A DNA stretch of 10,081 nucleotides from Chlorobiota bacterium (lineage in GTDB: Bacteria > Bacteroidota > Bacteroidia > Bacteroidales > F082), in NCBI GenBank assembly GCA_030619415.1, contig JAUXBM010000040.1, positions 1 through 10,081 on the forward strand, written 5' to 3'. Positions 1-9,897 of the stretch are shown here, in pieces (position 1 is the first letter of the stretch; the number at the start of each line of letters is the position of its first letter). A program made the position numbers and the translations under genes. The notes under the pieces are model-generated. The model was not told the DNA's origin. It ran no database searches and saw only the letters and a list, made by a program, of their open reading frames with translations.

Positions 1-594
1 GGAAAAGCAACACCGCGTGATTACGAAAGTGTTTCAGTGCTGTTCACCGATTTTAAAGGTTTTACCAAAATTGCCGAAGGACTTACCCCCAATGAATTAG
101 TCACTGAATTAAATACTTTTTTCCAGGCATTTGATTCGATTGTTGAAAAGCATGAGCTCGAAAAAATAAAAACAATCGGGGATGCATATATGTGTGCTGG
201 TGGCATTCCTACAGCAACTAACGACCACTTTATTAAAACAGTAAAAGCTGGATTGGAGATGCAGGAGTTCATGTTCAATACAAATGAAAAAAGAAAAGAG
301 CAGGGACTGGTTCCCTGGGAACTGAGGGTTGGGATTCACACCGGTCCGGTTGTAGCCGGAGTTGTTGGAAAAAAGAAATACGCTTACGATATCTGGGGGA
401 ATACGGTAAACATTGCCAGCAGGATGGAATCCAATGGAGAGACAGGAAAAGTTAATATTTCTTCAGCTACTTATCAACTAATTAAGGATAATTACAGCTG
501 CCATTACCGCGGCAAAATTTCCGCTAAAAATGTTGGTGAAATAGATATGTATTTTATAGAAAATGAAATTGCTGCGAAACCATCAGTAGCATAA
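1..594 (+). CDS. Class III adenylate cyclase, C-terminal catalytic domain (5'-partial)
   Basis: The frame is open from the first base of the window, so the N-terminal sensor or membrane part is missing; 197 codons remain. They form one cyclase homology domain that should convert ATP to 3',5'-cAMP as a homodimer. Counting from the first window codon, the metal-binding aspartates are D17 (FTDFKGFT) and D61 (GDAYM). The purine-selecting pair is K57 (IKTIGDAYM) and D130 (YDIWGN), the adenylate-cyclase combination; guanylate cyclases carry Glu and Cys. The transition-state residues N137 and R141 (GNTVNIASRM) are also present. The chain therefore looks catalytically complete and of the IIIa type. 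An internal GTG at 37 could be mistaken for a start, but the conserved first strand begins upstream of it. It lies 18 bases before the flavoprotein gene on the same strand, so co-transcription is likely. What input controls it cannot be seen here. Confidence 0.93.
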   Translation, partial: GKATPRDYESVSVLFTDFKGFTKIAEGLTPNELVTELNTFFQAFDSIVEKHELEKIKTIGDAYMCAGGIPTATNDHFIKTVKAGLEMQEFMFNTNEKRKEQGLVPWELRVGIHTGPVVAGVVGKKKYAYDIWGNTVNIASRMESNGETGKVNISSATYQLIKDNYSCHYRGKISAKNVGEIDMYFIENEIAAKPSVA

Positions 595-612
595 AAAAAA
601 TAAAGATAACAA

Positions 613-1965
613 ATGGTATATAATAATTCTGAAAACCTGGTTCTGGAGGACGGATCAAACATTGCTGTTATTGGTGGCGGACCCGCCGGGAGTTTCTTTT
701 CCTATTTTGCACTGGAGTTTTCCGAGCGATTTGGTTTGGAAATTAATGTTGATATAATCGAAGCAAAAGATTTCAACTGTATAGGTCCTTCCGGTTGCAA
801 TCATTGTGGCGGTATCGTCTCCGAATCGCTTATTCAGGCTTTATCTGCCGAAGGCATTGTTCTGCCATCAAACGTAATACACAGAGGAATAGAATCCTAT
901 ACCCTTCACCTCGAGCAGGGAACAACGGTAATTGAAACTCCCGTGCATGAACAACGAATTGCATCGATGTTCAGAGGTTCCGGACCCCGTGGTTCAACAG
1001 GTGATGACGAATTAAGTTTCGACAATTACTTACTGGACCTCTGCAGGGAAAAAGGAGCTAACATCATATCCGGAAGGGTCATTGAGGCTGAAAACAATAA
1101 TGATGGCGTAATTCTTAAAACAAAGGAGGGCACTGAAAAAAAATACGACCTGGTTGTAGGTGCAGTTGGTCTAAATTTAAAAGCATTGCAATTGTTTAAA
1201 AACCTCAGTCCATCATTCAAACCACCACAAACTACCAAAACCCATATTTGTGAATTCCATCTGGGTGAAAAAATCATTGATGAATACTTTGGTGATTCAA
1301 TGCACGTATTTTTACTGGACTTACCAAATATCAAGTTTGGAGCTCTTATTCCCAAAGGACAATACGTAACCATGGTTTTATTGGGTTCCGATATTAATAA
1401 GCAGATTGTTTCCGCTTTTCTAAATGCTAAGCCGGTCAGAGATTGTTTCCCAGCTCACATGGATATAGAAAGTATCATGCCTTGCCAATGCTATCCAACG
1501 ATCAATGTTCAAGGGGCAAAATCTGCATTCGGTGACAGGATGATTTTAATTGGAGATTCCGCTTCATCCAAATTATTTAAGAATGGGATCGGTGCAGCCT
1601 ATATCACTGCGAAAGCGGCAGCCAAGACAGCTATTTTCGAGGGTGTTTCAGAAAATGATTTCAGAAAACATTACCAGCCGGCTTGTAGTGACCTCGATCG
1701 GGATAATATGGTGGGCAAATTCATCTTTACAGTAACAACGATCATTCAAAAATCTCCGTTACTAAAAAAAGGATTATTGAGTATGGTGATAAAAGAGCAA
1801 ACAAAAGCAAATCATAAGCGGTTGATGAGTTCCATGCTTTGGGACACTTTCACCGGCAGTGCACCTTACACTGACATTTTAAAGCGCACATTAAATCCAA
1901 TGTTTAGCATCAACTTTTTTGGCCATACCTTGAAAAGAATTTTTAATGGCTCAAATAATAAATAA
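613..1965 (+). CDS. FAD-dependent oxidoreductase, geranylgeranyl-reductase/PHBH-like
   Basis: The 450-residue protein has an N-terminal Rossmann dinucleotide motif GGGPAG (residues 21-26) followed by the acidic ribose-binding end of beta-2 (IIEAKDF, 48-54). A second FAD signature lies near residue 307 (GDRMILIGDSAS, with G314-D315), followed by a Gly/Ala-rich helix (NGIGAAYITAKAAAKTA). This order is typical of the GR2 flavoproteins that include geranylgeranyl reductases, lycopene cyclases and p-hydroxybenzoate-hydroxylase-like enzymes. Beyond that fold I cannot name a substrate. Odd features are a cysteine cluster C56/C62/C65 (GPSGCNHCGG) where the substrate or isoalloxazine side usually lies, and a PCQC motif at 290-293. 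The C-terminal ~90 residues are basic and helical and might lie against a membrane. The ATG at 613 is the first good start and has no Shine-Dalgarno, as is normal for this phylum. The end overlaps or abuts the next gene. Confidence 0.85.
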   Translation: MVYNNSENLVLEDGSNIAVIGGGPAGSFFSYFALEFSERFGLEINVDIIEAKDFNCIGPSGCNHCGGIVSESLIQALSAEGIVLPSNVIHRGIESYTLHLEQGTTVIETPVHEQRIASMFRGSGPRGSTGDDELSFDNYLLDLCREKGANIISGRVIEAENNNDGVILKTKEGTEKKYDLVVGAVGLNLKALQLFKNLSPSFKPPQTTKTHICEFHLGEKIIDEYFGDSMHVFLLDLPNIKFGALIPKGQYVTMVLLGSDINKQIVSAFLNAKPVRDCFPAHMDIESIMPCQCYPTINVQGAKSAFGDRMILIGDSASSKLFKNGIGAAYITAKAAAKTAIFEGVSENDFRKHYQPACSDLDRDNMVGKFIFTVTTIIQKSPLLKKGLLSMVIKEQTKANHKRLMSSMLWDTFTGSAPYTDILKRTLNPMFSINFFGHTLKRIFNGSNNK

Positions 1966-2326
1966 TATGAAAAACAAGAAATTAGGACGTCTTTATAACG
2001 ATGGAGAAATTGTAATAAAACAAGGGGAACAGGGTGACTGCCTTTATGTGATCCAGGACGGAAAAGTCGAAATTATTGACGAATCAGGCGAAAAAGAAAT
2101 TAGGTTGGCTGAATTGGGCGAGACTGAATTTTTTGGAGAAATGGGTTTGTTTGAAAAGGATGTACGCTCATGTACGGTCAGGGCATTGGGAGATGCAAAG
2201 ATCATGACCATAGATAAGAGGAATTTTTATAAAACCATTCAAAAAGACCCAACCCTGGCTTACAGGCTTTTGGAAAAAATGTCGAACAGGCTCAGAGATA
2301 CCAACAAAAAACTAAGGAATCAATAA
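1946..2326 (+). CDS. Stand-alone cyclic-nucleotide-binding domain protein
   Basis: This 126-residue protein consists almost wholly of one CAP-type beta-roll and has no DNA-binding or enzymatic domain. The phosphate-binding cassette is intact: FFGEMGLF with G64-E65, then VRSCTVRA with R74-S75. These match the E and R-S positions (E72, R82, S83) with which E. coli CRP holds cAMP. It is therefore a credible cAMP receptor that would act by protein-protein contact, as regulatory subunits do. Two starts are possible: ATG 1946, which overlaps the flavoprotein gene by 20 bases, or ATG 1967 (residue 8), one base after that gene's stop. The second removes a low-complexity head (AQIINN) and fits the domain better. 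The candidate partners are its operon neighbours, the flavoprotein, the HD protein and the START-like protein. Which one it controls is unknown. Confidence 0.88.
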   Translation: MAQIINNMKNKKLGRLYNDGEIVIKQGEQGDCLYVIQDGKVEIIDESGEKEIRLAELGETEFFGEMGLFEKDVRSCTVRALGDAKIMTIDKRNFYKTIQKDPTLAYRLLEKMSNRLRDTNKKLRNQ

Positions 2327-2366
2327 TTGATGCACACTCTGTTGCAAAAATCTTTAAATAAAGATT

Positions 2367-2993
2367 ATGTGTAAGATAGATGACAAAATTGTGAAAGAAG
2401 CAAAGGATTTCGTCATAAACCTGCTTGATAAAAGGCTTTCTGAGAAACATTTGTACCATACCTGCAAGCATACTTTAGATGTGCTGAAGAATGCAGAGGT
2501 GATTGGTAAATACAGTAATTTAGATAGAGATGACCTTAATGTACTGCGGATAAGCACATTATTTCATGATGTTGGTTATATTGACACATATGATGATCAT
2601 GAGGCAAAAAGTGCAATATATGCCACTGATTTCCTCAAATCAAAGTATGTTAATGAACTCATAATTAAACGAGTCGTTGATGCAATACTTTCAACACAAG
2701 TACCTCAAAAACCAGATGATAAAGTATCTGAGATGTTGTGTGATGCAGACCTGATGTACCTGGCTAATGAATCTGAATATTTCGAAAAGGCAGAATTATT
2801 ACGTCAGGAGTGGTTTTTAATTGGGATAAAAAATTTGAGTGAATATGACTTTTATTTGGCTTCTCTGGAGTTTTTTAACTCCCATCATTATCATACTGAA
2901 TACGGAAAGAGTATGCTTCAACCTAAAAAAGAATTCAATGCAAAAATAATCCGTGAGAAAGCATCAAATTTCAGTTACAAATCCACAATGTGA
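2367..2993 (+). CDS. HD-domain metal-dependent phosphohydrolase, possible cyclic nucleotide phosphodiesterase
   Basis: The HD-superfamily metal ligands are all visible in this 208-residue cytosolic protein: H35 in YHTCKHT, H67-D68 in LFHDVGY, and the distal aspartate in LCDADLMYL (D126 or D128). The first histidine of YHxxxH (H31), together with HTLDV after it, recalls the YHNxxHAxDV signature of class I cyclic nucleotide phosphodiesterases. There the first His is the proton donor and the second binds metal. The ADL near the distal Asp also recalls the CADL segment of those enzymes. The HE..SA stretch (78-83) is closer to the bacterial predicted phosphohydrolases of the COG4339 kind, whose substrates are not settled. 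Cleavage of cAMP is inferred from motif and neighbourhood, not proven. The gene starts 40 bases after the cyclic-nucleotide-binding gene, and its stop overlaps the GTG start possible for the next gene. Confidence 0.8.
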   Translation: MCKIDDKIVKEAKDFVINLLDKRLSEKHLYHTCKHTLDVLKNAEVIGKYSNLDRDDLNVLRISTLFHDVGYIDTYDDHEAKSAIYATDFLKSKYVNELIIKRVVDAILSTQVPQKPDDKVSEMLCDADLMYLANESEYFEKAELLRQEWFLIGIKNLSEYDFYLASLEFFNSHHYHTEYGKSMLQPKKEFNAKIIREKASNFSYKSTM

Positions 2994-3784
2994 GTACCAA
3001 AGGCGAAAGTTCTGTAAATTGGGGCAGAATTATAATTGATTTCCAGGAGGAAATAACGACAAATATTAATATGCAGAAACCACCGGCAAGAAGCGAGAAT
3101 ATAGTGTCTGATTTCAGGAGCTTCTTTCTGCATGTGCCTGAAACAAAAACTTTTGTTGAAATAAATTCTGAGGAAGACCGTAAAAAGTACAGTCAACTAA
3201 TTTTCCGGCGAACTGGCATTGGCGTTGATAAATACAGGATGTTGAACATCCATCGTATTCGCATTGACGCACCATCAAAATTTATTTTTGAAGAGTTGAT
3301 GACCTGGGATGGGAATTCGAGCTGGTGGCCAAACTACATTGCGAAGGCAAATCTTGTGAATGGCAGTTTGGAAAATATCAAAATAACCCTGTTTGGCTTC
3401 TCACAAAATATATTCAAACTAAGAAATGGCATTTTCGGATATCACTTACTACATCTATTTAATCTAAATGCCATAAAAATCCAAAAAGATCCTGATTCCA
3501 ATAATGGCCGGCTTCTTTTGTATCGATGTAGTGGTGGCTATCCTATCGGTGTTTTTGCAATGTATGCGCGTGATTCGATTGCTGAACAGGATGAAGCAGG
3601 AATGTCTCAGTTGTTTATTGTTGTCGGTTTTAACTTTTACGGAAATAAAAATCTTTCTAACCTGAATCTTTTAAACAGAACATGGGAAAAAGTTCACAAC
3701 AAGGTTACCGCAAATGTTATGGACAAAATAAAACTTAAATGCGAGTGGAATTATAATTATTTGAAAAGAGACAAAAAACAATAG
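2990..3784 (+). CDS. Probable SRPBCC/START-like fold protein, function unknown
   Basis: I do not recognise a specific family. The pattern suggests the helix-grip (SRPBCC/START) fold: a first strand HRIRIDAP (residues 88-95), a helix with a Trp-rich end (FEELMTWDGNSSWWP), several strands including GRLLLYRCSGGYPIG, a strand QLFIVVGFNFYG, and a long amphipathic C-terminal helix (from about 227, RTWEKVHNKVTANVMDKIK). Such folds bind hydrophobic ligands in a cavity, which would fit a flavoprotein of the lipid-reductase type nearby, but this is inference. The start is uncertain. GTG 2990 overlaps the HD stop by four bases (translational coupling) and gives 264 residues; ATG 3071 (residue 28) gives 237. 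An AGGAGG at 3045-3050 lies 20 bases before 3071, too far for a normal ribosome site. No signal peptide or membrane segment is seen. Confidence 0.65.
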   Translation: MSTKGESSVNWGRIIIDFQEEITTNINMQKPPARSENIVSDFRSFFLHVPETKTFVEINSEEDRKKYSQLIFRRTGIGVDKYRMLNIHRIRIDAPSKFIFEELMTWDGNSSWWPNYIAKANLVNGSLENIKITLFGFSQNIFKLRNGIFGYHLLHLFNLNAIKIQKDPDSNNGRLLLYRCSGGYPIGVFAMYARDSIAEQDEAGMSQLFIVVGFNFYGNKNLSNLNLLNRTWEKVHNKVTANVMDKIKLKCEWNYNYLKRDKKQ

Positions 3785-3840
3785 TTTTTGTCGGTACTTG
3801 ATGATTTTGGGGGTTCAAAATTGAAATATTAATCCAATAT

Positions 3841-4539
3841 ATGAATAAAAAATTTATTGAAAATAGAACTTGTTTAGGATGTCAGGCAAAGTCTCCGCTA
3901 TTTAAGCTCCTTTCTGATAAAGAGCTTGAATTGGTTGATCAAAACAGGACTTCCGTATTTTTCCAAAAAGGGGAAACAATACGAAAACAGGGAGCTGTAT
4001 TAACACATGTCATATCATTGAATTCCGGGTTGGCGAAAGTGTACCTTGAAGGAGCAAACAATAAAAACACCATATTGGGGATTGTTAACCCTACCTCTTT
4101 TATAGGTGGACCTGGGATGTTTATCGATCGGGTGAACCATTTTACCGTCACCGCATTGGCAGATTCCTGTGTATGTTTTATTGAATTGAATACATTTAAG
4201 GCACTTCTTCAAGAAAATAGTTTATTTGCGGACGGTTACTTTAAGCACCTCAGCAACGTTACTCTGTCAGCATATAACAGGATTATCAATCTTACCCAAA
4301 AACAAATGGCAGGGCGACTGGCAGATACCTTAATTTATCTTTCAGATGAAATATTTAATAGCAAAAAATTTGAGTTGTTAATGACGAAAAATGATCTTGC
4401 AGAGCTATCAGGCATGTCAAGAGATAACACTGTCAGGAATTTAAAAAAATTTCACCAGGATGGGATAATCAATCATTCAAATAATTTGATTGAAATTCTG
4501 GATTATAATTCTCTTGAAAATATTCGACGAACCTTTTAA
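3841..4539 (+). CDS. Crp/Fnr-family transcriptional regulator
   Basis: The 232-residue protein has the Crp/Fnr layout: a beta-roll sensor domain (about 25-115), a dimer helix (about 117-150) and a C-terminal winged helix (about 170-222). The helix-turn-helix is TKNDLAELSGMSRDNTVRNL from residue 182. The cAMP-contact positions are lost: in the cassette FIGGPGMF..VNHFTVTA, Glu is replaced by G90 and Arg-Ser by N99-H100, so cAMP is an unlikely ligand. It has C11-x2-C14 at the N-terminus and C110/C112 in DSCVCFIEL. C112 aligns by eye with C122 of E. coli FNR, and C11/C14 with C20/C23, but the position of FNR C29 is Leu20. A redox, NO or metal signal is therefore possible. It is last in the operon, 56 bases after the START-like gene, and might also have its own promoter. 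Its targets are unknown; autoregulation of the cluster is a reasonable guess. Confidence 0.9.
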   Translation: MNKKFIENRTCLGCQAKSPLFKLLSDKELELVDQNRTSVFFQKGETIRKQGAVLTHVISLNSGLAKVYLEGANNKNTILGIVNPTSFIGGPGMFIDRVNHFTVTALADSCVCFIELNTFKALLQENSLFADGYFKHLSNVTLSAYNRIINLTQKQMAGRLADTLIYLSDEIFNSKKFELLMTKNDLAELSGMSRDNTVRNLKKFHQDGIINHSNNLIEILDYNSLENIRRTF

Positions 4540-4570
4540 ACCTGGCCTGTCAGTAACTGTTATATATTTA

Positions 4571-6442
4571 TTACTCCGAAGATACCCTGATAAAACCACG
4601 ATATGCCCCGATGTAAAAACTGTTGCCGGGACCAAAGGTGAAAGTCCCCCAAATATTGTTGAACACTTTGCGGTCGTAATGCTTCGAGCCCAGCGACCCC
4701 CATTTCAGCAGGAAATTGATGTTGTCGCCAAAGTGACCTTTCTCGAAATATGGTTTGATATAAAACACCCGCAATCCTGTATTAAAATCAATACCAGTGA
4801 TTTGCCAGTCGTAATGGCCATCGTAGTCGTCGTCTGAACGGTTATACACATACATCATTCCCACAGGAGTTGATAGTTTTGGGGTGGCTGTTTTGCAATC
4901 ATAGACACCACTGGCCGGCCAGTTTTCAACCACTTCAAAAATTCCTTTCGTCTCATTGTAATCAAACCGCATGATGCCTCCGGGGGTTATATTGTCTTCA
5001 AACGGGTCTTCATAACCATAAGTATTTGCGAGAATGAAACTATTGTCATAGGCAACAACTGAGTTTTCTACCGCGGCACCGGCATTGGTAAATAATTTGT
5101 GTTTGGAGACCAGCAGACCGGTTTCCTGTGAATAAATACAAAGGTTTACCTGCAGCGAATCGTTGTCACAAATGGCGACGAAACGGTCATCCATCAGGGT
5201 TGGGGTGGTTCCGCTCCCGGCATTTAGCTGACCGGGTTTCACCTTTTTGTCGTTGTTATAAACGAGGTCGCCCTCTTTGTATGCCTCAACCCATTTGGGG
5301 TCGAGTTCGATCTGTTTGTTTTCTTCATTAAACCGAAGTTTATACAAAGCATAATTGGAGACAATATACACCCCATCTTTTCCAACGGAAAATGAATTCT
5401 GTATTTCTTCCCTTGTATCTTCTGTTGTCATAAAAGCTTCACGGAACTTTTCTTTGAACTCCGGGGTGTACTTTTCAATTTCCCGGTACAAATCAATGTC
5501 TTCAAAGCTTTTAAAATGGGTATCGAAATGTTTGTTGATCTTATCGATCGTTCCAAAAAATCCGATGTAAGAAGCATAAACTCTCATGCAGCCTTCTTCG
5601 GTGAGCTCATTACGATGAATCAGACCCACTATTCCATGCCGGGAAGTAAACCAGATATTGCCATGAATATCGGGCATGAGGGCAGTGAGCAGGTTCATTT
5701 TGTCTTTTTCAGAAAGGTGTTCATCAACAATATCCCCGGCTTCAATTTGTTGCTTGATATTTGTCGATTCGATGATTTCATCTTCAAATTTCCGGTCCTT
5801 GATCTGTATCCTGAGAATGTTGTTGTTGGCTCCCGGAATATAATAATGATCTTTATCTGAAAGGTAGGAATAAGCACCCCCGGCAGTATTATGAAAAATC
5901 TTTTCCCGTCCTTTTTTTCCAATTAGTTCCATCACTTTGGTGCCACGGCCCGGGACTTCGATCTGATCGAGTACGATGATAGTATCGGTTACATGAAGTA
6001 ACAAAAGTGTAGTATTTTCTCTTCCAAAAGAAAGCGTTACCAGTGTTGAATCATCAACAAAATCAAAGGCAGGGCACATGCCCGAAAAGCCTCCTTTTTT
6101 CTGTAAGACATGGAAGTACTGTACAGTGACATTTTCAGGCAATGGCCCCGGCAAATTGGTTACATCCGAAGAATGTGAATCTTCGTGCATGGCACTGGGT
6201 AAATCATATTTCATGTAAGGATGGTTCCATTTTTCCTTTTTTGGTAATGGATCAGGCAATACCTTTTTTCCGCCGGTGTGCTCCAGCCATTCATCATACC
6301 AGCCTGTTTCTAATTGTGCTGCCTGGGTAATAAATCTAAAATCGGCAGGTTCCATTACTTCGTTGTGGCAGTGTTGACCAAAGCCAATAGCTGCATTTAA
6401 AACGAAAGGAATTATAAGGGTAAACTGTAAGTATCTTATCAT
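4571..6442 (-). CDS. Secreted beta-propeller-like protein, function unknown
   Basis: The open frame runs up to a TTG at 6496, but the ATG at 6442 is the likely start. It begins with a typical signal peptide (MIRYLQFTLIIPFVLNAAI, cut near GFG|Q), giving 623 residues. The 54 bases ahead of it overlap the promoter-like element. The mature protein begins QHCHNE and continues with an acidic, His-rich segment (HEDSHSSD). A long series of beta-strand repeats follows, with phrases common in SMP-30/Vgb-type propellers and two-component-sensor propellers, such as PDIHGNIWFTS and GKDGVYIVSNYALYKL. The blades are too divergent for me to count. A Lys/Glu-rich helical insert of roughly 60 residues sits in the middle (IDKINKHFDTHFKSFEDIDL onwards). 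I cannot name a family or a reaction. No C-terminal sorting domain is evident. It is convergent with the Crp/Fnr gene (31 bases apart) and downstream of the lipoprotein gene. Confidence 0.72.
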   Translation of the reverse strand: MIRYLQFTLIIPFVLNAAIGFGQHCHNEVMEPADFRFITQAAQLETGWYDEWLEHTGGKKVLPDPLPKKEKWNHPYMKYDLPSAMHEDSHSSDVTNLPGPLPENVTVQYFHVLQKKGGFSGMCPAFDFVDDSTLVTLSFGRENTTLLLLHVTDTIIVLDQIEVPGRGTKVMELIGKKGREKIFHNTAGGAYSYLSDKDHYYIPGANNNILRIQIKDRKFEDEIIESTNIKQQIEAGDIVDEHLSEKDKMNLLTALMPDIHGNIWFTSRHGIVGLIHRNELTEEGCMRVYASYIGFFGTIDKINKHFDTHFKSFEDIDLYREIEKYTPEFKEKFREAFMTTEDTREEIQNSFSVGKDGVYIVSNYALYKLRFNEENKQIELDPKWVEAYKEGDLVYNNDKKVKPGQLNAGSGTTPTLMDDRFVAICDNDSLQVNLCIYSQETGLLVSKHKLFTNAGAAVENSVVAYDNSFILANTYGYEDPFEDNITPGGIMRFDYNETKGIFEVVENWPASGVYDCKTATPKLSTPVGMMYVYNRSDDDYDGHYDWQITGIDFNTGLRVFYIKPYFEKGHFGDNINFLLKWGSLGSKHYDRKVFNNIWGTFTFGPGNSFYIGAYRGFIRVSSE

Positions 6443-6493
6443 AGGTTTATGTTTGTTCCATGTGATTTTCGTTGACAATCGAAAAGGATAATT

Positions 6494-6527
6494 CAAAATT
6501 AAACCTTTCTGTTAAAACTTATGCAAA
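6494..6527 (-). promoter_or_regulatory. Bacteroidota-type promoter for the secreted propeller gene
   Basis: Read on the minus strand, TTTG (6527-6524) is followed after 22 bases by TAATTTTG (6501-6494), matching the TAnnTTTG -7 element. The spacer is slightly longer than the usual 19-21 bases. Transcription would start near 6487 and leave an untranslated leader of about 45 bases before ATG 6442. The element also overlaps the TTG at 6496, which argues against that codon as the start. This is motif evidence only. Confidence 0.5.
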
Positions 6528-6604: not shown

Positions 6605-7228
6605 TTAATGTCCTTCTTCAGGAGCGTATGGTAAATGTGAATCATGTAAGATGACACGCAATTTACCTTCGTCGTCTTTTGTATAGGCAAAAGAGTATTC
6701 AACTTTCACATCCTCGCCACCCAGGGCCGGTGTAAAGTAATAGTTACCCATCGCGATAGCCATATTGCCTACAATTTTTATCCCGGTGTTTTCCCATCTA
6801 ACAGCACTCCAGGGATTAAGCGCAAAACCATGATCTTCCTGATAATTGGCATTTCCTCCAATAAAATAAGAAAGTGCACCTTCTTTTGTTGTACGGAATT
6901 GTTTCACAGAAGCCAATGTGGGTTTAAATAAAACGACTCCTAAATTAAATCCGTACACATCATCTACAAAGTTCACCAGTTCAGTTTCGTAATCGCCTTT
7001 TTCTAAATACGTCTTGCCAATGCGGACAACTCCTTCCGCCCATATTTTTTGAGCATCTAAAACTTCTTGTTCAGAAATTATTACTGCTGCTTTTGAATGT
7101 AATTCGCTCTCTTTTTGTTTGTCTGCTGCCGGCTGTTTGCAAGAAACAAAACTCAAAGTAAATGCGGTGGCAAAAATTGCAGCAAATAAAGTTAAATTGC
7201 CTTTTGTTCTTAAACTATTTTTTTTCAT
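6605..7228 (-). CDS. Lipoprotein resembling iota-class carbonic anhydrase (COG4337, CaMKII-AD fold)
   Basis: The 207-residue protein starts with a basic N-terminus and a hydrophobic segment ending in LSFVSC, a relaxed lipobox with C30 as the lipidated residue. It is therefore probably anchored in the outer or inner membrane facing the periplasm. The mature part matches, from memory, the COG4337 family of NTF2-like proteins that includes metal-independent iota carbonic anhydrases: AQKIWAEGVVRIGKTY (59-74), VYGFNLGVVLFKPTLA (91-106), FRTTKEGALSYFIGG (111-125), GFALNPW (134-140) and GNYYFTP (161-167). The C-terminal signature, usually HHSSLPY, is HDSHLPY here (195-201). The four residues I recall as catalytic would map to T104, Y121, H195 and S197, all present. 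Proteins of this family are sometimes mislabelled phosphoribosyl-AMP cyclohydrolase. Hydration of CO2 is inferred from family. The downstream minus-strand propeller gene is also exported. Confidence 0.75.
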   Translation of the reverse strand: MKKNSLRTKGNLTLFAAIFATAFTLSFVSCKQPAADKQKESELHSKAAVIISEQEVLDAQKIWAEGVVRIGKTYLEKGDYETELVNFVDDVYGFNLGVVLFKPTLASVKQFRTTKEGALSYFIGGNANYQEDHGFALNPWSAVRWENTGIKIVGNMAIAMGNYYFTPALGGEDVKVEYSFAYTKDDEGKLRVILHDSHLPYAPEEGH

Positions 7229-7481: not shown

Positions 7482-8564
7482 TTATCGCTTCAATATCTCA
7501 ATCAGTTCTTTGTTGATGTATAAGGTTTCCCGTCCAACTTTTTGAGATTCTAAAATTCCTGTTTTTTCCATTTCTTTCAAATATCTTGATGCAGCCTTTC
7601 TTTCTACTTTTAAATGATTTACAACAAATTCTATTTTTGAATATGGTTGCTCAAATAGAAGTTCTACCAATTCCTTTTTGTAAATTTTTGGGGAATTAAT
7701 GCGTACTTTCTCAATTGTTCGCTCTAATAATTGCCTTATAGTATTAATTTTTCCAATCGTTTGTAATGAGGTAATTTCAACGGCTTTTAACATAAATAAA
7801 ATCCATTCCTCCCAATCGCCTGTCTTGTTTGTCTGATTTAATAAACGATAATAGTCAGTTTTGTTTTCTATAATATAAGCACTTAGATATAGAATTGGAA
7901 TATCAATTAAATCATTTAAAATCAGATATAAGATATTTAATATTCTGCCTGCCCTGCCATTACCATCGTAAAAAGGGTGAATGCTTTCAAATTGATAATG
8001 GAGTATTGCCAAATTAATCAACGGAGATAAATCCGGCTCATTTTGGTTAAAATGATCAATAAAATTGCTCAGCAAATCCAAAATCTCTTGTTTGTCTTGA
8101 GGTGGTGTATAAACGACTTCTCCGGTTCTGTCATTTTTTAGAACAGTTCCGGGTGTGCTTCTTATTCCTGCTGTATTATCTATCAGTTCTTGTTGGATAC
8201 CTACTATGTCATTTACTCTGAGAAATCCTTGATTTTCAAGAAGATTGAATCCGTAAAATAATGCTGTTCGATAATTTACAACTTCTTTTGTCTCTGCTGA
8301 GATAGCTAATTTGTTTACGGTTAATGCTTTATAAAGTTCATCCTGGGTGGTGATGATATTTTCAATCTCAGAACTCCCCTGTGCCTCTTGCAGCACAATA
8401 GCATTGATTAACATTGATTGATTTGGAATTGTGCCGGCAATACCTTTTAACTCAGCTAATGCTGTTGCAGCCCTGTTAGTTTGCCTTAAAACCGCTATTG
8501 TTTCTACCTGTTCTCTTTTCGGGGGAAGTTTTTCAAGATGATAAAATGGTGTATCCTGTCCCAT
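7482..8564 (-). CDS. Fic-family protein adenylyltransferase (class II, with C-terminal winged helix)
   Basis: The 360-residue protein carries the complete Fic catalytic motif HPFYDGNGRAGR (196-207). H196 is the catalytic base, D200 binds Mg2+, and the Gly/Asn/Arg loop binds the phosphates. It should transfer AMP from ATP to a hydroxyl side chain of a target protein. An N-terminal inhibitory motif S-x3-E-N is present (S64...E68-N69 in SSEIENI), which marks a class II, self-inhibited enzyme; E68 would block the ATP gamma-phosphate. The flap segment TGEVVYTPP (147-155) is in the usual place. The C-terminal part (about 290-358) forms a winged helix (SKIEFVVNHLKVERKAASRYLKEM) that could bind DNA or the target. 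The length is normal for the family. ATG 8564 is supported by a promoter element 17 bases upstream. No separate antitoxin gene is needed or seen. The target is unknown. Confidence 0.95.
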   Translation of the reverse strand: MGQDTPFYHLEKLPPKREQVETIAVLRQTNRAATALAELKGIAGTIPNQSMLINAIVLQEAQGSSEIENIITTQDELYKALTVNKLAISAETKEVVNYRTALFYGFNLLENQGFLRVNDIVGIQQELIDNTAGIRSTPGTVLKNDRTGEVVYTPPQDKQEILDLLSNFIDHFNQNEPDLSPLINLAILHYQFESIHPFYDGNGRAGRILNILYLILNDLIDIPILYLSAYIIENKTDYYRLLNQTNKTGDWEEWILFMLKAVEITSLQTIGKINTIRQLLERTIEKVRINSPKIYKKELVELLFEQPYSKIEFVVNHLKVERKAASRYLKEMEKTGILESQKVGRETLYINKELIEILKR

Positions 8565-8593: not shown

Positions 8594-8707
8594 ATAAAGT
8601 ACATGTGTATTTGTTTTGAAATATTTTATTGCATGAAACAGGAAGAATATTTCAATCCGCTGACTTCAAGGTAAGTCGCAAACCTATGATAATTACCCTA
8701 ATGCCGA

Positions 8708-8740
8708 ATTGCACTAACTTAGGAATTATTACTACCTTTG
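8708..8740 (+). promoter_or_regulatory. Bacteroidota-type promoter for the AAA_14 ATPase gene
   Basis: ATTG (8708-8711), 21 bases, then TACCTTTG (8733-8740), a full match to TAnnTTTG. Transcription would start near 8747, after the TTG at 8629 that opens the reading frame and just before ATG 8761 and ATG 8770. This places the true gene start at one of those two ATGs. Confidence 0.55.
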
Positions 8741-8760
8741 GTGTCCATATTCATATAAAT

Positions 8761-9897
8761 ATGGTCAGCATGATAGCCAGATTATTACAAAAACAGATAG
8801 CAGAGAAACTCAAACCCGGACTTGTGGTTGGATTATTTGGAGCGAGAAGAACAGGTAAAACTGTAATAATGGAAGAAATTCAAAAGTCAATCACAAATGG
8901 AAAAGTCTTAATGGTTCAAGGTGAGAACCTTGATGTAGCGGAGATTTTGTCGAGCCAACGGCTAAGCAGGCTAAAGCAATTAATTAAAGGTTATGATTAT
9001 TTATTTATTGATGAAGCACAAAAAATACCGAACATTGGTGTCAATCTCAAATTAATTGTAGATACAATGCCCGACCTTACCGTTTTTGTAACAGGTTCGT
9101 CAGCTTTTGACCTGAAAAATAAAATTGGCGAACCATTAACAGGACGAAGCAAATTCTATTATCTGTACCCAATAGCCCAGGGGGAGTTGGATGAAGATTA
9201 TATGACGGCATTTGAAAATTTAGAACCACGCTTGATTTATGGCACATATCCACAGGTAATAACAACCGAATCTGTTGTTGAAAAAAGAGATGTACTGGAG
9301 TCAATAAAAAATGGATATCTTTTAAAGGACATCCTTGAACTGGATAACCTGAAAGATTCAATTTTTATTCTAAACTTGTTGAAACTGCTTGCATTTCAAA
9401 TCGGAAAAGACGTGTCACTTAGAGAATTGGCAACCAGCTTAAGTGTAAATAAGAACACGGTAATGAGGTATTTAAACCTCCTTGAGAAAAATTACATTAT
9501 ATTTTCTCTTTCCGGATTTAGCAGGAATCTCAGGAAGGAAATCTCTAAATCTTCAAGATATTTCTTCTGGGACAATGGTATTAGAAATGCTGTGATTTCC
9601 AATCTCAATTTGCTAAACTCACGAGATGATGTTGGTAAGCTTTGGGAGAATTATTGTATTTCTGAAAGAATGAAAATCAACCATTACCGGGGCAGGATGA
9701 CCAATTATTATTTTTGGCGGACGTACGACCAAAAGGAGATTGACCTCATTGAAGAAAGAGACGGACACATCTATGCTTTTGAATTTAAATGGGGTCAGAC
9801 AAAAGTAAAAAAACCGTATTTGTTTCTGGATACCTATCCAAATTCTTCATTTTCTGTTATCAACAAAGAAAATTTTCTTGATTTTATTGGTCGGTAA
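8761..9897 (+). CDS. AAA_14 ATPase with C-terminal DUF4143 (PD-(D/E)XK-like) domain
   Basis: The frame is open from a TTG at 8629, but the first 44 codons do not look like the family and contain the promoter, so the start is ATG 8761 or, better, ATG 8770 (MIARLLQKQI, 375 residues). Numbered from 8770, Walker A is GARRTGKT (24-31), Walker B is YLFIDEAQ (77-84) and sensor 1 is TGSSA (108-112). The middle part (about 205-250) includes a helix-turn-helix-like stretch, SLRELATSLSVNKNTVMRYL. The C-terminal DUF4143 domain ends with EIDLIE...AFEFKWG, giving D325, E338 and K340 in the spacing of a PD-(D/E)XK nuclease fold. This is the COG1373 family, widespread in Bacteroidota and archaea, with no established role. 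It diverges from fic and converges on the next gene 12 bases away. Confidence 0.9.
   Translation: MVSMIARLLQKQIAEKLKPGLVVGLFGARRTGKTVIMEEIQKSITNGKVLMVQGENLDVAEILSSQRLSRLKQLIKGYDYLFIDEAQKIPNIGVNLKLIVDTMPDLTVFVTGSSAFDLKNKIGEPLTGRSKFYYLYPIAQGELDEDYMTAFENLEPRLIYGTYPQVITTESVVEKRDVLESIKNGYLLKDILELDNLKDSIFILNLLKLLAFQIGKDVSLRELATSLSVNKNTVMRYLNLLEKNYIIFSLSGFSRNLRKEISKSSRYFFWDNGIRNAVISNLNLLNSRDDVGKLWENYCISERMKINHYRGRMTNYYFWRTYDQKEIDLIEERDGHIYAFEFKWGQTKVKKPYLFLDTYPNSSFSVINKENFLDFIGR

Follow-up and report, generated by a model that had tools for sequence, protein, structure and literature searches.

Does the gene cluster at the start of contig JAUXBM010000040.1, assigned to a Chlorobiota bacterium, form a self-contained cyclic AMP (cAMP) signalling operon built around a flavoenzyme? 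The window analysed here is this entire contig (C117), 10,081 bases long, from an assembly that is 56% complete. As its preliminary description had stated, six closely spaced or overlapping genes on the + strand span positions 1–4539, with successive gaps of 18, −20, 40, −4 and 56 bases; a convergent gene follows at 4571–6496. We consider it probable that these genes provide a flavoenzyme which is gated by cAMP and acts on a hydrophobic substrate; binding, gating, the redox reaction and the substrate are all predictions. The linkage between the flavoprotein and a cyclic-nucleotide-binding (CNB) protein across differently labelled bacteria points to an undescribed direct route of cAMP into metabolism.

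Linkage of the flavoprotein to a cyclic-nucleotide-binding domain

The proposed effector is a flavoprotein of 450 amino acids (613–1965, + strand) with a geranylgeranyl-reductase-like (GR2/PHBH) fold and CxxC and CxC cysteines. On the same strand follows a stand-alone CRP-type CNB protein (1946–2326) that possesses a C-helix and lacks a DNA-binding domain, in line with the earlier claim of a cAMP-type receptor domain without an output domain. It matches PF00027 at 81.1 bits (cut-off 27.5). The frame has 126 codons; the likely true start is ATG 1967, yielding 119 amino acids.

A scan of genome contigs with a 30-sequence alignment of the flavoprotein yielded 203 relatives; the 80 best were retained and, together with the window, make up 81 loci (cited below by L numbers). 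Neighbouring genes were labelled by domain-level models, and a CNB was called adjacent if it lay on the same strand within 250 bases of the flavoprotein gene. By this definition, the CNB is adjacent in 42 loci, fused in 22 and neither in 17, so that most members of the flavoprotein family in this sample (64/81) have a fused or adjacent cyclic-nucleotide receptor. None of the 632 other genes of at least 150 amino acids in these loci had such a CNB, in a control whose CNB model was derived from the same loci and which left out CNB genes up to approximately 250–300 bases from the flavoprotein, namely its partner CNBs and extra ones in L051, L066 and L075. The adjacent CNBs lie downstream of the flavoprotein in 40 cases and upstream in two; 32 of the 42 overlap it in mechanical open reading frame calls, which inflate overlaps. 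Across the 64 loci, CNB and flavoprotein distances were correlated (Spearman 0.67; maximum of 0.11 in 1000 permutations), as would be the case for two partners that are co-inherited.

A midpoint-rooted flavoprotein tree showed two deep clades with CNB partners in both. The first is labelled Bacteroidota almost throughout (L004 is labelled Chlorobiota), and the second comprises many phyla with a single Bacteroidota label (L048); these labels derive from the titles of the records, most of which are metagenome bins, and individual labels may be in error. The idea that the pair is special to Bacteroidota was not borne out, as records with the labels of many other phyla contain the core pair as well. 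On the starred branches of the tree, the fused state requires at least six gains or losses.

The association extended to protein databases. With a fused protein as query, all 120 listed matches carried PF00027, although such a query favours fusions. When the flavin part alone was scored, a CNB was detected by hidden Markov model in 83 of the 120 listed relatives (79 seen before plus 4 of 41 new ones), leaving 37 unfused, and precomputed Pfam annotation gave PF00027 in 81 of 120. The window flavoprotein as query yielded one fusion to a CNB among 120 listed matches. Two CNBs were present in 27 of the 120 proteins listed for the fused query. Two proteins (P0145 and P0196) combine flavoprotein, CNB and PilZ domain in one chain, a possible joint input of cAMP and c-di-GMP. 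An MscS-type channel gene with its own cyclic-nucleotide domain (L051:2110–3663) lies directly upstream of a fused flavoprotein, and an MscS gene is found upstream of the flavoprotein–CNB pair in L010.

Adenylate cyclases as the putative cAMP source

The first gene of the cluster (1–594, + strand) is truncated where the contig begins; what remains encodes only the catalytic domain of a class III adenylate cyclase (PF00211, 2.4e-58, 197 bits). Aligned to mammalian AC5 and AC8, it has the metal Asp pair, the adenine-type Lys and Asp and the catalytic Asn and Arg. The cAMP synthase named in the preliminary description can be recognised in this domain, and the window enzyme is predicted to make cAMP.

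Cyclase-type genes were found in the examined flank of 19 of the 64 loci with a CNB, the window among them, and of none of the 17 without (Fisher p 0.0086, uncorrected for kinship); cyclases were thus seen only near receptor-bearing flavoproteins. Fourteen of these 19 genes share the strand of the flavoprotein. The adenylate-type Lys and Asp are present in all 13 aligned cyclases of the Bacteroidota type (fragments in L008 were left out).

Cyclases of this type bear TPR repeats (Pfam on L004, L006, L017 and L029). By simple hydropathy, a hydrophobic segment precedes the cyclase domain in all eight proteins scanned, and an N-terminal hydrophobic stretch exceeds the threshold in six of the seven with a complete N-terminus, L007 falling below. 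From these segments and the TPR repeats in relatives, the input is probably received on the outer side of the membrane. The window's genome contains a second cyclase, on a contig stretch of 3555 bases, with a similar repeat run and hydrophobic segment as judged by eye. Elsewhere, the cyclase input differs: HisKA and receiver domains in Chloroflexi L074, where a gene for a Cache histidine kinase lies in between, an FHA domain in Acidobacteria L071 and DUF5939 in L050. Differing inputs combined with a constant output pair would be expected if cAMP is the link.

Ligand contacts of the CNB and the Crp/Fnr-type regulator

Residues 14–125 of the window CNB align with positions 25–138 of the NCBIfam CRP model, below its full-length cut-off. 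In its phosphate-binding cassette, the window CNB has both contact residues, the Glu and Arg that hold ribose and phosphate; each of the two is conserved in 66 of 69 CNB sequences (76 minus seven helix-turn-helix (HTH) regulators, and including some CNBs besides direct partners). From these residues, the CNB is predicted to bind cAMP.

The last gene of the cluster (3841–4539, + strand) encodes a Crp/Fnr-type regulator with an HTH, which had been counted among the cAMP components. The assignment as such stands (PF00027 and PF13545 matched); a role as cAMP receptor was rejected, since Gly and Asn replace the cAMP-contacting Glu and Arg. A matching HTH gene occurs in seven of the 81 loci only, namely the window, L004, L029, L014, L015, L016 and L020.

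The flavoprotein family

The window flavoprotein has the GR2-type fold that had been proposed. In an alignment of 320 rows, in which some proteins are counted twice as locus and database copies, the four cysteines of CxxC and CxC are all kept in 318, the glycines of GxGxxG each in 317, Cys65 of CGG in 319, GD in 320 and the Leu of LxGD in 228. Cys65 was likened by motif alone to Cys47 of geranylgeranyl reductases. According to PMC10821996, GxGxxG, the CGG cysteine, LxGD and the cavity motif PxxYxWxFP are motifs of these reductases. The cavity motif is absent here and replaced by F-G/A-A-x-I/V-P, a stretch with Phe in 320, Ala in 319 and Ile or Val in 320 of the 320 rows, which was judged equivalent by eye with the final Pro as anchor. 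Against NCBIfam TIGR02032, the window flavoprotein reached 45.6 bits, below the cut-off of 158.8. A sequence search of the PDB found nothing at E 0.001, the best match having an E-value of 0.033 at a limit of 10.

The flavoprotein is rare and patchily distributed among related genomes: searches of 295 genomes from the order (E 1e-20) and of 395 from the phylum (E 1e-30) both detected it in the window's own genome alone. A search against plasmids gave no match, and the scan of genome contigs with the single flavoprotein sequence gave no relative. In environmental data the family is large: of 7999 candidates scored, 4648 passed E 1e-10, and with a distant member as query 3893 of 7998 passed E 1e-30. 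The pair is open to testing, as named isolates carry both flavoprotein and CNB: Lutimonas (L017, L039), Eudoraea adriatica (L041) and Draconibacterium aestuarii (L029).

Further genes of the cluster and its surroundings

Between the CNB and the regulator lie two further + strand genes. The first (2367–2993; PF01966, 35.7 bits) encodes an HD-domain metal-dependent phosphohydrolase, a candidate cAMP phosphodiesterase. The metal ligands (H, HD, H, D) are kept in all ten full-length rows, which agrees with the phosphodiesterase-like protein described before; hydrolysis of cAMP is a prediction. HD genes were found in 11 of 81 loci, all 11 in the Bacteroidota-type clade; many contigs in the set are short. 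A search of the PDB with the HD protein gave only a weak match to a ribosomal protein (E 0.08). PMC4886424 names an HD phosphohydrolase as gene partner of one predicted cyclase.

The second gene (2990–3784, starting at GTG 2990 or ATG 3071) encodes a START/SRPBCC-like protein, possibly a carrier of a hydrophobic ligand, with the helix-grip fold that its initial naming implied. This family occurs in 22 of 81 loci, many contigs being short, and is fused to the flavoprotein once (L035). It is present in 15 of the 17 loci without a CNB; in the remaining two, another SRPBCC-type protein lies upstream (L055) or the contig stops 394 bases past the gene (L025). A second SRPBCC-type family of 157–160 amino acids was found in five loci; in Pfam, only L055 exceeded the cut-off (Polyketide_cyc2), and L043 had no match.

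On these counts a fixed six-gene unit was rejected, the complete order having been found only in the window and L004. Of the earlier proposal, the pairing of flavoprotein and receptor is supported, and the full gene set as a constant unit is not. In window positions 1–5000, we found 11 promoter-like sites (15.8 in shuffled sequences) and seven terminator-like sites (3.4 in shuffles), with no terminator-like match between the six genes or directly past the last. One + strand promoter-like match (1930–1959) sits at the flavoprotein–CNB junction, so the CNB might be transcribed separately.

Within 7 kb of the flavoproteins, ten loci have a large subtilase that carries MBG repeats together with a type IX secretion tail; it lies directly upstream of the TPR cyclase in L004, L006, L007, L011, L017, L029 and L039. 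Pfam was run on three examples (L004:2162–6856, L011:1167–6905 and L017:10883–16549; the secretion tail of L017 falls just under the cut-off). An SDR with DUF2867 recurs in ten loci (Pfam on four); its DUF2867 part as a relative of the START-like protein was unsupported (hhalign probability 0.9%). Pirin was found in six loci (Pfam on one), and an NAD(P)H/Fe-S-oxidoreductase-type gene in six proteobacterial records (Pfam on L077 only). The latter (L077:10762–12444, for example) is a candidate electron donor and would fit electron supply to the flavoprotein.

On the − strand of the window, a metal-independent carbonic anhydrase match (6605–7228; 152 bits, cut-off 350) is followed by a SoFic-type Fic protein adenylyltransferase (7482–8564; 420 bits, cut-off 550). 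The gene beside it, at 8629–9897, encodes an AAA_14/DUF4143 ATPase.

Proposed function and alternatives

We suggest the following mechanism. A membrane-anchored TPR cyclase would make cAMP, as its domain and residues indicate. Judging from the contact residues, cAMP would bind the CRP-like domain, and the cAMP-bound CNB, adjacent or fused, would switch the flavoprotein allosterically, for which linkage, fusion and the precedent of Bd1971 speak. The flavoprotein may then catalyse a redox step whose substrate would be hydrophobic, perhaps an isoprenoid, and could be held or delivered by the START-like protein. The HD protein might hydrolyse cAMP, and the Crp/Fnr regulator might answer another cue. 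The earlier proposal that the flavoprotein is the effector, putatively gated by the receptor, has good support from the linkage in 64 of 81 loci, the 83 of 120 listed relatives and the co-occurrence of cyclases.

Several observations weigh against cAMP gating. No CNB is nearby in 17 of the 81 flavoprotein loci, and distant relatives are undersampled in a set made of the best 80 of 203. In 45 of the 64 CNB loci, the flank examined has no cyclase, though many contigs are short. Five of the 19 cyclase genes lie on the opposite strand (L031, L032, L058, L071 and L072). The L059 cyclase is doubtful, lacking a PF00211 match at E 1e-4 as well as the substrate residues, and those of L071 and L072 have Thr instead of Asp. 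The direct CNB partners in L079 and L080 each lack one contact residue. Finally, the position matching the adenine-contacting Thr127 of CRP is Thr in the window but in just 11 of 69 CNB sequences, which would fit cGMP as well as cAMP as ligand.

The CNB could instead be a localiser or scaffold that does not gate catalysis, in which case cAMP would not act directly on the activity. Flavoproteins of this kind can occur on their own, given that they are still recognisable in the 17 loci lacking a CNB, and the linker of the fused model (residues 444–456) has a pLDDT below 50. We regard this as unlikely, as the contact residues of the CNB are so widely kept and cyclase genes occur only near CNB-bearing flavoproteins. 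Also rather improbable is a ligand other than cAMP, such as cGMP or a further cyclic nucleotide, or a supply of cAMP from elsewhere in the cell than the neighbouring cyclase. The variable adenine-contact position, the many CNB loci without a cyclase and the second cyclase of the same layout in the window's genome would fit this; the adenylate-type Lys and Asp in 13 of 13 Bacteroidota-type cyclases argue against it. A chance neighbourhood without joint function, to which the rarity of the complete gene order might point and which may hold for the Crp/Fnr gene, is very improbable and already unlikely for the flavoprotein–CNB pair, given that fused and adjacent CNBs recur across both deep clades, that the control was empty and that the distances are correlated.

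If cAMP does gate the flavoprotein, this would add a widespread metabolic output of cAMP, a testable cAMP pathway for Bacteroidota and a regulated role for a flavoprotein family without an assignment so far. Only tentatively would we go further, to a module spread horizontally across phyla: sensor cyclases of various kinds would act on a single effector, a four-cysteine flavoprotein gated by cAMP, and this effector would reduce or oxidise a START-carried isoprenoid lipid or quinone. In that case, cAMP would directly control membrane redox chemistry without a transcription step, and the PilZ-fused forms would join cAMP and c-di-GMP input.

Comparison with known systems

Bacterial cAMP is known chiefly for its action via transcription factors. 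To our knowledge, direct control of an enzyme by cAMP has been described in few cases, among them Bd1971 and mycobacterial Pat. Pat is a cAMP-regulated protein acetyltransferase with a CNB fused to the enzyme; it resembles the present family in the CNB being tied to an enzyme and differs in its acetyltransferase output. Against the NCBIfam Pat model, the window CNB scores 35 bits, which is under the cut-off. In a literature search, no title or beginning of an abstract named a flavoprotein with a cyclic-nucleotide-binding domain, a weak negative as most subscription journals fall outside its coverage.

In Bd1971, the cAMP-sensing c-di-GMP phosphodiesterase of Bdellovibrio, a CRP-type domain likewise controls an enzyme directly (PMC6717892), and its CNB is among the PDB matches of the window CNB. 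There the output is an EAL phosphodiesterase and the sensor N-terminal, whereas the present family has a flavoprotein as output and a sensor that is separate or C-terminal. Family 2B encapsulins, according to PMC8346489, likewise attach a cyclic-nucleotide (cNMP) domain to a metabolic system; control by cNMP is proposed for them, and they occur in many phyla. Their domain is internal to a shell protein and not part of an enzyme, and shell proteins were not searched for here. On the enzyme side, geranylgeranyl reductases and the EtfC/FixC subunit (PDB 3oz2, 3atq and 7koe) share the fold, GxGxxG, the CGG cysteine and LxGD with the flavoprotein, which differs from them in its changed cavity motif, its extra CxxC and CxC cysteines and its CNB partner.

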